Positions 40,152 to 56,661 of a stretch of 64,000 bases of DNA are shown here, piece by piece. The DNA is taken from contig NZ_BJLY01000004.1 in assembly GCF_006538885.1 (NCBI RefSeq), positions 248,001-312,000 of the forward strand, read 5' to 3'. Source of the DNA: Gluconobacter roseus NBRC 3990 (GTDB lineage: Bacteria > Pseudomonadota > Alphaproteobacteria > Acetobacterales > Acetobacteraceae). The number at the start of each line of letters is the position of its first letter. Within the stretch, counting starts at the first letter, position 1. The notes beneath the pieces are model-generated. The model was not told the DNA's origin. It saw only the letters and a program-made list of their open reading frames with translations, and ran no database searches. A program made the translations under genes and the position numbers.

Positions 40152-40354
40152 TCTGAAATCCTCGGAAAAGCGTGACTGAAACTGTGATGAAGCCAGACAA
40201 TCTAGGGTTTGCGGGGGTTTTTTGCAAGATGGGGCGGTTTTTATTATTGATATTCGATAATCATCCTGTCTTGGATAACCGGTATGAATTTATCGAAAAA
40301 CAATAATCTACTCTCGCTTTTTCCAGCTCAATCAGCTTGCCACGGAGAGGTGTA

Positions 40355-40561
40355 GTGCCCGTTCGTGTCAGGCTGGATGATGTTCTCAGGAACCGGAACA
40401 TGTCCCTGACGGAACTGTCGGAAAATGTCGGTCTGACAATGGCCAATCTGTCCATTCTCAAGACGGGTAAGGCCCGGGCGATCCGCTTTTCCACGCTTGA
40501 GGCGATCTGCCGCGTGCTGGACTGTCAGCCTGGAGACATTCTTGATCTGGCCCAGGACTGA
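40355..40561 (+). CDS. Small XRE-family helix-turn-helix protein
   Basis: A 68-residue protein that is nearly all Cro/CI-type HTH: VRLDDVLRNRNMSLTELSEN, VGLTMANLSILKTGK, then FSTLEAICRVLDCQPGDIL. It is a likely DNA-binding regulator with no effector domain. The start is GTG 40355 with GGAGAGG at 40344-40350. It is oriented against the surrounding carB and greA genes and divergent from greA. The target is unknown; greA or its own promoter is plausible. Confidence 0.82.
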   Translation: MPVRVRLDDVLRNRNMSLTELSENVGLTMANLSILKTGKARAIRFSTLEAICRVLDCQPGDILDLAQD

Positions 40562-40623: not shown

Positions 40624-43878
<3,255 letters not shown>

Positions 43879-43881
43879 GGC

Positions 43882-45258
43882 TCAGGCTCCTGCTTTAGCG
43901 CGACGGTCCATGACCGCGACGAAACGCTCGAAAAGATAGAAACTGTCGGACGGGCCGGGGCTCGCCTCGGGGTGGTACTGGACGGAGAAGGCGTCCTTCG
44001 TGGTCGAGGCGATGCCTTCGTTGGAGCCGTCGAACAGGCTCACATGCGTCACCTTTACGTCGGCGGGCAGGGACTCCTCGTCCACGGCGAAACCGTGGTT
44101 CTGGCTGGTGATTTCCACGCGGCCGGTTTCGACGTCCTTGACCGGCTGGTTGGCGCCGCGATGGCCGCGCTCCAGCTTGTAGGTCTTGCCGCCGAGCGCC
44201 TGTGCGAGAAGCTGGTGGCCGAGGCAGATACCGAAGACGGGAACATTTGCGTCCAGCACCTTGCGGATGGCGGGGACGGCATAGGTGCCGGTCGCGGCCG
44301 GATCGCCGGGTCCGTTGGAGAGGAACACGCCTTCGGGCTTGAGCTCCAGGATCTCTTCGGCGGTGGCCGTGGCGGGCAGGACGGTGACGTCACAGCCAGC
44401 GGTCACGAGGCAGCGCAGAATGTTGTCCTTCGCACCATAATCCATGGCGACCACGCGGCGGCGGTTTTCGCGCACGGGCTTTGTGGAGTGCCACACGCCT
44501 TCGGTCCAGACGCGCTTGGGCCGGGTCACTTCCTTGGCGAGGTCCATACCTTCGAGGCCGGGCCACTGGCGGGCACGGTTCAGCAGGCTGTCCGTGTCGA
44601 TACGGCCGTTTTCCGGGAAGGCGAGGATGGCGGTCTGCGGGCCATTGTCGCGCAGGGTGCGGGTGATGGCGCGGGTGTCGATGCCGCTGATGCCCGCACG
44701 GCCATGATCGCGGAGCCATGCGGCGAAGGGCTCGTGGGAGCGCCAGCTTGCCGGGGCGGTGATGTCTTCCTTCACGACGGCGCCGAGGGCGGCCATTTTC
44801 AGGGCCTCGTTGTCATCGGCGTTCGTGCCGACATTGCCGATATGCGGGAAAGTGAAGGTCACGATCTGGCCGGCGAAGGACGGGTCGGTCAGGGTTTCCT
44901 GATAGCCGGTCATGCCGGTGGAGAAGCAGAGTTCACCGACGGCGCCTTCCGTATGGGCGCCGAAGCCACGGCCCCACAGGACCGTCCCATCGGCAAGGAC
45001 AAGGGCGGCGTTGGCGCCGGGAGGGCAGGGATTGGACACGTCCGTCTCTCTTTCTTGTTCTTGCTGGGTTTCAGTCGTGGTGAGATCTGCTGTCAGATCC
45101 TGCAGGGCGATTCCCGGCACGCGCAGCAGGGCTGGCCAGTGCTTGGTCGGGACCATGCGGGACTGGCGCCACTTGCGGACGGCTTCCAGTCCGACGCCGG
45201 CAAGAGCGGCGATTTCGTCCGCGCCTCCGGCTTTTTCGATGATTCTGTCGATGTCCAT
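43882..45258 (-). CDS. carA: Carbamoyl-phosphate synthase small subunit with N-terminal helix-turn-helix domain
   Basis: Glutaminase subunit that feeds ammonia to CarB. The normal CarA begins around SNPCPPGANAALVLADG and ends with a class-I glutamine amidotransferase domain with catalytic cysteine in FGICLGHQ and a HPEASPGPSD histidine region. Ahead of it, in the same open frame, are about 73 residues with a phage-repressor-like HTH (IIEKAGGADEIAALAGVG, LEAVRKWRQSR, VPTKHWPALLRVPGI). ATG 45258 includes this domain (458 residues). A GTG at 45039, with AGAGAG upstream, would give a conventional CarA of about 385. I recall an NCBI 'carph-isopro' domain of this kind, unverified. Confidence 0.93.
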   Translation of the reverse strand: MDIDRIIEKAGGADEIAALAGVGLEAVRKWRQSRMVPTKHWPALLRVPGIALQDLTADLTTTETQQEQERETDVSNPCPPGANAALVLADGTVLWGRGFGAHTEGAVGELCFSTGMTGYQETLTDPSFAGQIVTFTFPHIGNVGTNADDNEALKMAALGAVVKEDITAPASWRSHEPFAAWLRDHGRAGISGIDTRAITRTLRDNGPQTAILAFPENGRIDTDSLLNRARQWPGLEGMDLAKEVTRPKRVWTEGVWHSTKPVRENRRRVVAMDYGAKDNILRCLVTAGCDVTVLPATATAEEILELKPEGVFLSNGPGDPAATGTYAVPAIRKVLDANVPVFGICLGHQLLAQALGGKTYKLERGHRGANQPVKDVETGRVEITSQNHGFAVDEESLPADVKVTHVSLFDGSNEGIASTTKDAFSVQYHPEASPGPSDSFYLFERFVAVMDRRAKAGA

Positions 45259-45321
45259 GGTCGCCCCGTTGCTGGCTGCCGGATGTACTTCTGGGGCCTC
45301 TGAATAAGGGATCGGAAACGG

Positions 45322-45384
45322 AATGGGAAGTTTTTTCCCATTGCCTGTTCTGCGTTTCGGGTTGGGGTGGGAAATTTTTTCCGA
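45322..45384. promoter_or_regulatory. Two related inverted repeats upstream of carA
   Basis: AATGGGAA-N5-TTCCCATT (45322-45342) is a perfect inverted repeat with a GTTTT spacer. A second, imperfect copy TGGGAA-N5-TTCCGA (45368-45384) has the spacer ATTTT. Their centres are 44 bases apart, about four helical turns. They lie 64 and 110 bases upstream of the carA ATG, in the 262-base region shared with the divergent GatB/YqeY gene. They look like paired operator sites; a stem-loop in the leader RNA is the alternative. Confidence 0.5.
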
Positions 45385-45520: not shown

Positions 45521-45976
45521 ATGTCGCTTCGCAAGCAGATCATGGACGACCTCAAGACAGCCATGAAGGCCGGTCAGTCCGAGACGGTGGCCCAGATCCG
45601 CGGGATCACGGCCAAGATCAAGGATCTGGATGTTGCCGCCCGCGCCAAGAGCGCCGAGGTGACGGATACGGACATCATTTCCGCCCTGCGTTCCATGATC
45701 AAGTCCCGTACGGAATCCGCCACGATGTATCGTGAGGGTGGCCGTCCGGAGTTAGCGGAAAAGGAAGAGGGCGAAATCGCGACGATCAAGTCCTACCTGC
45801 CGCCGGAGCTGGATGAAGCCACGCTGAAAGCCGGGATCGAAGACGCCGTGAAGAAGACGGAAGCGGCCGGCATGAAGGACATGGGTAAGGTCATGGCCGC
45901 GCTGAAGGAGCGTTTTGGCGCGGATCTGGACCCGGCGAAGGCCAGTGCGCTGGTGAAGGCGCATCTTTCGGCCTGA
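45521..45976 (+). CDS. GatB/YqeY domain protein
   Basis: A 151-residue protein of the YqeY family, which resembles the tail domain of GatB (tRNA-dependent amidotransferase) and is proposed to bind tRNA; no activity is established. Pattern: LRKQIMDDLKTAMKAGQSET at the start, EIATIKSYLPPELDEATLKA in the middle and KVMAALKERFGADLDPAKAS at the end. ATG 45521 follows AGGAGAA. In many alphaproteobacteria this gene lies between carA and dnaG; here dnaG is 10.7 kb away. Confidence 0.92.
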   Translation: MSLRKQIMDDLKTAMKAGQSETVAQIRGITAKIKDLDVAARAKSAEVTDTDIISALRSMIKSRTESATMYREGGRPELAEKEEGEIATIKSYLPPELDEATLKAGIEDAVKKTEAAGMKDMGKVMAALKERFGADLDPAKASALVKAHLSA

Positions 45977-56531: not shown

Positions 56532-56661
56532 ATTTCTCGGGATTTTCTGGATGGCCTCGTGTCGTTATGGACGCTGGCAAAAAACTTCCTGTAGAGAGGG
56601 GCTTATCTGGTTCCTGCGTGGAAACCAGTTTCCCAACCCGCATGAAAGGCTCTTCCTGCCC

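Follow-up and report, generated by a model that had tools for sequence, protein, structure and literature searches.

A Cro-like domain at the head of CarA and a conserved palindromic operator at its promoter suggest a self-repressing enzyme subunit in Acetobacteraceae

Why should a housekeeping enzyme subunit begin with a DNA-binding domain? The question is raised by the carA gene of Gluconobacter roseus NBRC 3990, on the minus strand of a window of 64,000 nucleotides (contig NZ_BJLY01000004.1, positions 248,001 to 312,000), in which an earlier note, made from the sequence, had read an in-frame N-terminal helix-turn-helix (HTH) domain of about 73 residues ahead of a complete CarA, together with two possible starts, ATG 45258 for a fused protein and GTG 45039 for a conventional CarA of 385 residues. 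Carbamoyl phosphate is a building block for arginine and pyrimidines, and several acetic acid bacteria are used in industry. The genome comparisons reported here make it highly probable, in our judgement, that CarA of the Acetobacteraceae is a self-repressing enzyme subunit, the long form of which would bind two palindromes in its promoter and limit carAB, and that a start in the linker would provide a CarA without the HTH.

The HTH head of CarA and its conservation

The long form of carA is one open frame of 458 residues running from ATG 45258 to the stop at 43882, with the following parts (window positions throughout):

43882..45258, minus strand: carA long form from ATG 45258 (Cro-like HTH, disordered linker and complete CarA, 458 residues), by family and profile matches
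45091..45252, minus strand: carph-isopro / Cro-like HTH (residues 3-56; NF046037, 62.2 bits), with EAVRKWRQ in the presumed recognition helix
45010..45090, minus strand: linker (residues 57-83), variable and predicted to be disordered
43882..45009, minus strand: CarA body (residues 84-458) and stop (TIGR01368, 442 bits; GATase PF00117)

Residues 84-451 match TIGR01368 at 442.1 bits (cut-off 307.35), and C345, H429 and E431, which we take to be the Cys/His/Glu triad of class-I amidotransferases, are invariant in 28 aligned sequences. The 73-residue stretch ahead of this body matches the NCBIfam model NF046037 (carph-isopro) at 62.2 bits, over residues 3-56 and model positions 1-54 of 54, above the curated cut-off of 38 bits that defines membership. 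Both the domain and the carph-isopro name given in the earlier note are thereby confirmed, and the coordinates and frame that it gave for the two starts proved right. The family line of NF046037, as returned, states no function, and the name is used in no paper found among the openly licensed ones searched; likewise we saw no operators, promoter layout or internal start described for carph-isopro.

What kind of domain is it? Against the PDB, a profile of 27 of these HTHs retrieves the XPH1 Cro hybrid (5w8y, E 4e-4), Xfaso 1 Cro (3bd1, 8e-4) and N15 Cro (2hin/6on0, 0.009). The AlphaFold model of the HTH has five helices and a mean predicted local distance difference test score (pLDDT) of 80, and Foldseek places the same proteins on top, 3bd1 (template modelling score to target 0.75), 5w8y and 6on0, at weak E-values of 0.02-0.3 and with no match at 0.001 or below. 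In the model of full-length CarA (mean pLDDT 78), residues 58-75 of the linker fall under 50. By profile and predicted structure, the CarA HTH is of the Cro-type fold class, which bears out the phage-repressor-like character first ascribed to it, and its nearest solved relatives in sequence and fold are Xfaso 1 Cro (3bd1) and N15 Cro, the latter solved with operator DNA (6on0). The setting differs from that of phage Cro, in that the domain here forms the head of a subunit of a housekeeping enzyme and has no clear candidate target other than its own operon. The match to Pfam YdaS_toxin (PF15943), at 26.6 bits, falls short of the gathering score of 30, and the domain is therefore not filed as YdaS.

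The domain lies over the cut-off in 142 of 150 Acetobacteraceae genomes and in none of 14 control genomes (3 of which give weaker matches), so that the fusion is not a matter of chance; an order sample, in which every genome belongs to the same family and which partly overlaps the first sample, gives 248 of 250. A survey of CarA N-termini in the family finds that HTH and CarA share one frame in 132 of the 133 loci read. Most locus counts below use the 126 of these, from 89 genera, that passed a first motif filter; the seven that it missed all carry the HTH and, at some place in the locus, an operator core, six of them with the HTH in frame and one, L170, frameshifted. L026 is counted as fused, although a stop interrupts its CarA frame some 40 codons past the start of the CarA motif, and the sequence of L220 is partial. 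From a scan of named genomes 80 of 329 loci were kept, and 78 of them have the CarA motif in frame with the HTH, L287 having a variant motif and L280 a frameshift; the genera include Gluconobacter, Neokomagataea, Asaia, Bombella, Saccharibacter, Acetobacter, Komagataeibacter, Gluconacetobacter and Rhodopila, along with many metagenome bins, and in all 80 loci a loose pattern, scanned with no control, finds an operator core within 200 bp. The frameshifts of L170 and L280, at the junction of HTH-linker and CarA, and the early stop of L026 may be assembly errors or genuine disruptions. The G. roseus genome has a single carph-isopro copy over the cut-off. G. oxydans NBRC 14819 (L258) likewise carries the fusion. 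Outside the family, CarA carried the HTH in none of 29 loci read by eye (30 fetched), and exact operator cores turned up twice in these loci, each time in coding sequence 48 nt ahead of the CarA motif.

Selection on the domain was compared across 26 genomes of the genus as dN/dS (the ratio of mean nonsynonymous to mean synonymous divergence), which is 0.043 for the HTH (289 of 325 pairs usable), 0.069 for CarA (305 pairs) and 0.464 for the linker (298 pairs). By this measure the HTH of CarA is under strong purifying selection, and the 5' region, whose lack of conservation as protein would have told against the fusion in the eyes of the earlier note, is clearly conserved. The low dN/dS and the retention across the family rule out a chance or leftover domain. 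A functionless vestige of an accidentally fused phage gene could appeal to the phage-like class of the domain, seen in the Cro proteins and, weakly (E 0.004), in proteins of four Caulobacter phages, one of them annotated as a transcriptional repressor; set against the same dN/dS, the near-universal retention in the family and an operator conserved alongside, a vestige seems to us barely credible.

Palindromes upstream of carA and what reads them

Where would such a domain bind? Cro-class repressors typically use short palindromic operators that overlap promoters, and upstream of HTH-carA we find GGAA-N5-TTCC palindromes with the extended consensus TGGGAA-N5-TTCCCA, two of them in the window:

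45324..45340, minus strand: operator 1, TGGGAAAAAACTTCCCA, the sole perfect TGGGAAN5TTCCCA in the genome
45368..45384, minus strand: operator 2, TCGGAAAAAATTTCCCA, 44 bp upstream of operator 1

Within 250 bp upstream, exact cores number two or more in 67 of the 126 loci, one in 53 and none in 6. A position weight matrix built from 187 sites and applied to the same distance at a score of at least 9 detects one operator or more in 125 of 126 loci (89 genera) and two sites in 100, and detects none in equal stretches of carA coding sequence (0/126, best score 0.9). Of 100 genomes, 39 contain a match to a strict two-site pattern, in each case a single one and each time next to HTH-carA, with 0/100 for the reversed control. 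Exact operator copies are present in 41 of 60 family genomes, 53 copies in total, 49 of which lie at carA, and the reversed pattern gives 6 sites. In the own genome (2.88 Mb) the one perfect copy lies upstream of carA. If one mismatch is allowed, four places match in all: two at carA, a third within a coding ORF (L088) and a fourth immediately ahead of a dnaG-like ORF (56619-56635), the last of them probably by chance. Judged by eye, both operators stand out as islands of identity within variable sequence in most of the 26 genus genomes, the distal one being degraded in L242. On these counts the operator is conserved and largely dedicated to carA, and for a wider regulon no good sites were found away from carA, the 94 places of the own genome with up to two mismatches not having been gone through singly.

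Operator and domain are also absent together. Ten family genomes with a weak or no HTH match were searched for CarA: four have no carA match, three have a cut or partial one (G026, G069 and G146, of which G146 could not be judged), and three, namely G155 and, in a second genus, G029 and G116, have a CarA without HTH. Only these last three are counted as losses of the HTH, and none of them has an operator within 500 bp, even by a loose pattern.

A further link lies in the residue that follows KWR in the presumed recognition helix. With Q at this place, the flank base of the operator is mostly G (mean 89%, 116 loci); with S (5 loci) or A (1), it is nearly always C. Five further S loci (L177, L384-L386 of its genus, and L387) have C at the flank in all cases, and two further Q control loci have G. 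On the tree, S/A needs three changes, and the two pairs that sit on well-supported branches shift the operator in the same way, none in the other. In L210 and L221 Q is retained although the flank is mostly not G; both loci have D instead of E nearby, which may explain their exceptional flanks. Taken as a whole, the covariation of HTH residue and operator flank is suggestive only.

HTH domains are not always DNA binders, and the palindromes might be read by a different, unlinked regulator, such as an arginine or pyrimidine repressor, with the CarA HTH engaged in something else, for instance protein-protein contact. In Escherichia coli, carAB is under several trans-acting regulators (PMC6245113, in excerpt). 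A general regulator should, however, have good sites elsewhere, whereas the own genome has no second perfect site and exact sites across the family fall almost entirely at carA; moreover, operator and HTH are absent together and, in the few events available, tend to change together, so that we consider an unlinked reader improbable.

The position of the palindromes tells how binding might act. In 79 of 125 loci the proximal operator ends at most 30 nt from the ATG (12-13 nt before it in 70 of these), and these 79 loci have T, T and G at operator positions -6, -5 and -4 (97/94/91%) and T and A at +17 and +18 (65/90%), a consensus by which the operator would fill the 17-bp spacer between -35- and -10-like boxes. 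With such a spacer so close to the ATG, the transcript would start at about the ATG and be leaderless. For G. oxydans, the main text of PMC5756330, in which carA is not named, describes promoters with -35 ttGnnn and -10 nAtnnn, a ribosome-binding motif aGGAg, and 62 leaderless transcripts among 1344 (5%). The genus of the window has a different layout, in which TTCCCA (the right arm of the operator), about 17 nt and then TATNNN recur, as seen by eye, which suggests that the right arm serves as the -35 box:

45324..45329, minus strand: TTCCCA, right arm of operator 1, proposed -35 box (by eye)
45301..45306, minus strand: TATTCA, proposed -10 box of carA (by eye)

In either layout, one would expect RNA polymerase to be blocked by a repressor bound there. 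A reading of the palindromes as RNA hairpins or terminators is not favoured, since 79 of the 125 proximal ones sit between promoter-like boxes, upstream of the likely transcript start.

Several observations weigh against a dedicated operator read by CarA. The three genomes with HTH-less CarA are all small, and reduced genomes lose regulation generally. The operator matrix was trained on the same loci that it scores, and in 19 of 60 family genomes an exact 17-bp site is lacking altogether. The strict two-site pattern fails in the own genome, because operator 2 has TCGG instead of TGGG, and the 94 operator-pattern places of that genome at two mismatches or fewer, as compared with 53 for the reversed control, leave room for weaker sites at other genes. 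The distance between the two sites varies from 36 to 82 bp (38-40 in 70 of 100 loci), which makes a fixed complex on both operators unlikely; a fixed helical phasing of the two is unsupported. With regard to covariation, 11 of the 116 Q loci have G at half or fewer of the flank positions, L210 at none, the loci with T (2) or H (2) after KWR have mixed flanks that are not always changed, and the independent events are so few that a sign test is not significant.

The conserved, nearly carA-confined operator and its joint absence with the HTH strongly support, by comparison, the suggestion that the fused CarA may bind DNA at its own operon. Binding of the HTH to the palindromes, repression, and production of both protein forms are what we infer, and the self-repressing CarA would work as follows. 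Translation from ATG 45258 would yield long CarA, with the Cro-like HTH on a flexible linker; the HTH, as a dimer, would engage the two TGGGAA-N5-TTCCCA-type palindromes in the carA promoter; and bound long CarA would block RNA polymerase, so that the gene product, through its amount or state, would set a limit on the output of carAB. HTH-less CarA for catalysis would come from the start in the linker, which is GTG 45039 in the window and, in many relatives, an ATG preceded by a Shine-Dalgarno sequence. More speculatively, and by analogy with E. coli carbamoyl phosphate synthetase, described in an excerpt of PMC6245113 as a heterodimer with uridine monophosphate (UMP) and a tetramer with ornithine, assembly with CarB or an oligomer state controlled by UMP or ornithine might decide whether HTHs pair on DNA.

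The surroundings of carA add a few observations. The operators lie in an intergenic region shared with a divergent ORF (45521-45976, plus strand), presumably GatB/YqeY-like, which might be affected by them. An in-frame ATG farther upstream, at 45564 (560 residues), also exists, but the frame that it opens overlaps this ORF. On the 3' side carA is adjoined by carB, and a small plus-strand ORF (40337-40561), XRE-like in its HTH by eye, lies beside the carB end:

40624..43878, minus strand: carB, from the ORF list, named by sequence and position

A candidate start in the linker

Does the gene also make CarA without its head? The candidate start and the region before it are:

45037..45039, minus strand: candidate internal start GTG (CarA of 385 residues), in frame, 219 nt or 73 codons past ATG 45258
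45040..45051, minus strand: AGAGAGACGGAC, before the GTG, candidate ribosome-binding region, by codon invariance

The position of this GTG is occupied by GTG in 21 of the 26 genus genomes and by ATG in 5, four of which (L244-L247) have AAAGGAAAT before the ATG. In the 21 GTG genomes no stretch of the gene stays codon-invariant for longer than AGA GAG ACG GAC GTG, with 5 codons (the next has 4); invariant codons number 56 of the 288 comparable ones in CarA and 11 of 45 in the HTH. Across the family, 89 of 126 linkers (62 genera) contain an ATG, and 105 an ATG, GTG or TTG. Of 110 linker ATGs, 63 (in 63 loci and 44 genera) have a Shine-Dalgarno match of at least 4 before them, whereas among the 2869 control codons of the same linkers the share is about 9% (p about 1e-34, with sites treated as independent); for the long-form starts it is 24 of 126. 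As linker ATGs so often follow a Shine-Dalgarno sequence, many lineages, though not all, probably also make a second CarA that lacks the HTH.

It could also be that the long form is the sole product, the linker start being a relic of an ancestral carA start that predates the HTH fusion, with no short CarA made. In the HTH-less G155, indeed, CarA starts with a Met that is found within the linker in loci of the same genus; 37 of the 126 linkers have no ATG and 21 have no ATG, GTG or TTG; and only 14% of 42 linker GTG/TTG codons have a Shine-Dalgarno match, close to the 9% of control codons, the start in the window being of that kind. A relic should, however, have decayed, whereas the excess of Shine-Dalgarno matches before linker ATGs spans 44 genera and the codon-invariant run ends at the GTG itself, and we regard a mere relic as rather unlikely. 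Since GTG and TTG are hardly enriched, the case for a short CarA in the window itself rests on the alignment of its GTG with the relatives' ATG and on that run. Of the two isoforms envisaged in the earlier note, the enrichment in relatives speaks in favour and the kind of start found in the window against, which amounts to moderate support.

The domain on other proteins and comparison with known systems

Is the arrangement peculiar to CarA? In a class-wide sample, 64 of 337 genomes, a few of them Acetobacteraceae, exceed the carph-isopro cut-off. Outside the family the domain is, in most of the loci read, N-terminal on a protein with a hydrophobic stretch and a coiled coil (L057-L076, L078-L080, L082, L085, L086), possibly a membrane protein and, by eye, presumably COG4223/Mic60-like. 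Further partners are PyrB (aspartate carbamoyltransferase), Nnr (NAD(P)HX epimerase/dehydratase), HisZ, ArgB (acetylglutamate kinase), Ccr (crotonyl-CoA reductase), SerA (phosphoglycerate dehydrogenase) and PdhA (pyruvate dehydrogenase E1 alpha), in other alphaproteobacterial families (L382, L381, L383, L077, L373-L380, L369-L372, L358, L359, L361, L081, L329, L337, L338, L360). NCBIfam confirmed each partner enzyme on one locus, HisZ on two, and the domain itself, at 32-35 bits, falls below the 38-bit cut-off in the HisZ of L358 and in the examples of ArgB and PdhA. It also occurs by itself in small proteins of 64-133 residues, at L363 (G116), L362 (G149), L364-L367 and L350-L352; G116, which carries the one at L363, is among the genomes with HTH-less CarA.

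Operators were sought for the PyrB, Nnr, HisZ, Ccr and coiled-coil sets, ArgB (2 loci), SerA (1) and PdhA (1) being left out. Upstream of HTH-PyrB, TTGCG-N5-CGCAA is present in 3/3 loci, and upstream of HTH-Nnr an ACGT-N5-ACGT dyad is exact in 5 of 9 loci, with related sequences, by eye, in the rest; neither level was reached in 200 shuffles. The upstream dyads of the HisZ and Ccr fusions are not significant (14/200 shuffles each), and the blocks look conserved; the coiled-coil fusions share no upstream dyad in 25 loci (top 5/25, shuffle maxima 3-5). We give about even weight, for and against, to the generalization that carph-isopro is a portable single-target autorepressor module, a Cro-like head repeatedly fused to alphaproteobacterial enzymes (CarA, PyrB, ArgB, HisZ, SerA, Ccr, Nnr, PdhA), each with an operator at its own promoter, and that HTH-CarA combines, on a single mRNA, an often leaderless start for the repressor with a start for the enzyme that is led by a Shine-Dalgarno sequence, so that enzyme and dedicated regulator would come from the same gene.

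If true, self-repression by CarA would give a function to a widespread domain that we found only as a model name, and would place the carbamoyl phosphate branch point of acetic acid bacteria under a feedback, product as repressor, built into the enzyme itself; the other fusions point to a general and evolvable route to self-limiting metabolic genes without a separate regulator. We found no report of an HTH-CarA fusion in the openly licensed literature; the text of InterPro and NCBI records was not covered, and the absence of a report is thus unproven.

Among known systems, PutA, BirA and NadR likewise combine an enzyme or enzyme-like domain with one that binds DNA, as does BzdR (PMC3602430, in excerpt). 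Another parallel lies at the same operon: as described in part of PMC6245113, the E. coli trigger enzymes PepA and PyrH also double as transcriptional regulators of carAB. There, unrelated enzymes act, and PepA uses patches of basic residues to contact DNA and wrap it (PMC6245113, same excerpt), whereas CarA itself carries an HTH with a sequence-specific candidate operator. One feature expected of an autogenous trigger enzyme, a conserved palindromic operator at its own promoter, is found at carA. From PutA, BirA, NadR and BzdR, CarA differs in the HTH family, in the enzyme and in having apparently one target, and also in that, in many of its relatives, a second start could release the enzyme without its HTH.
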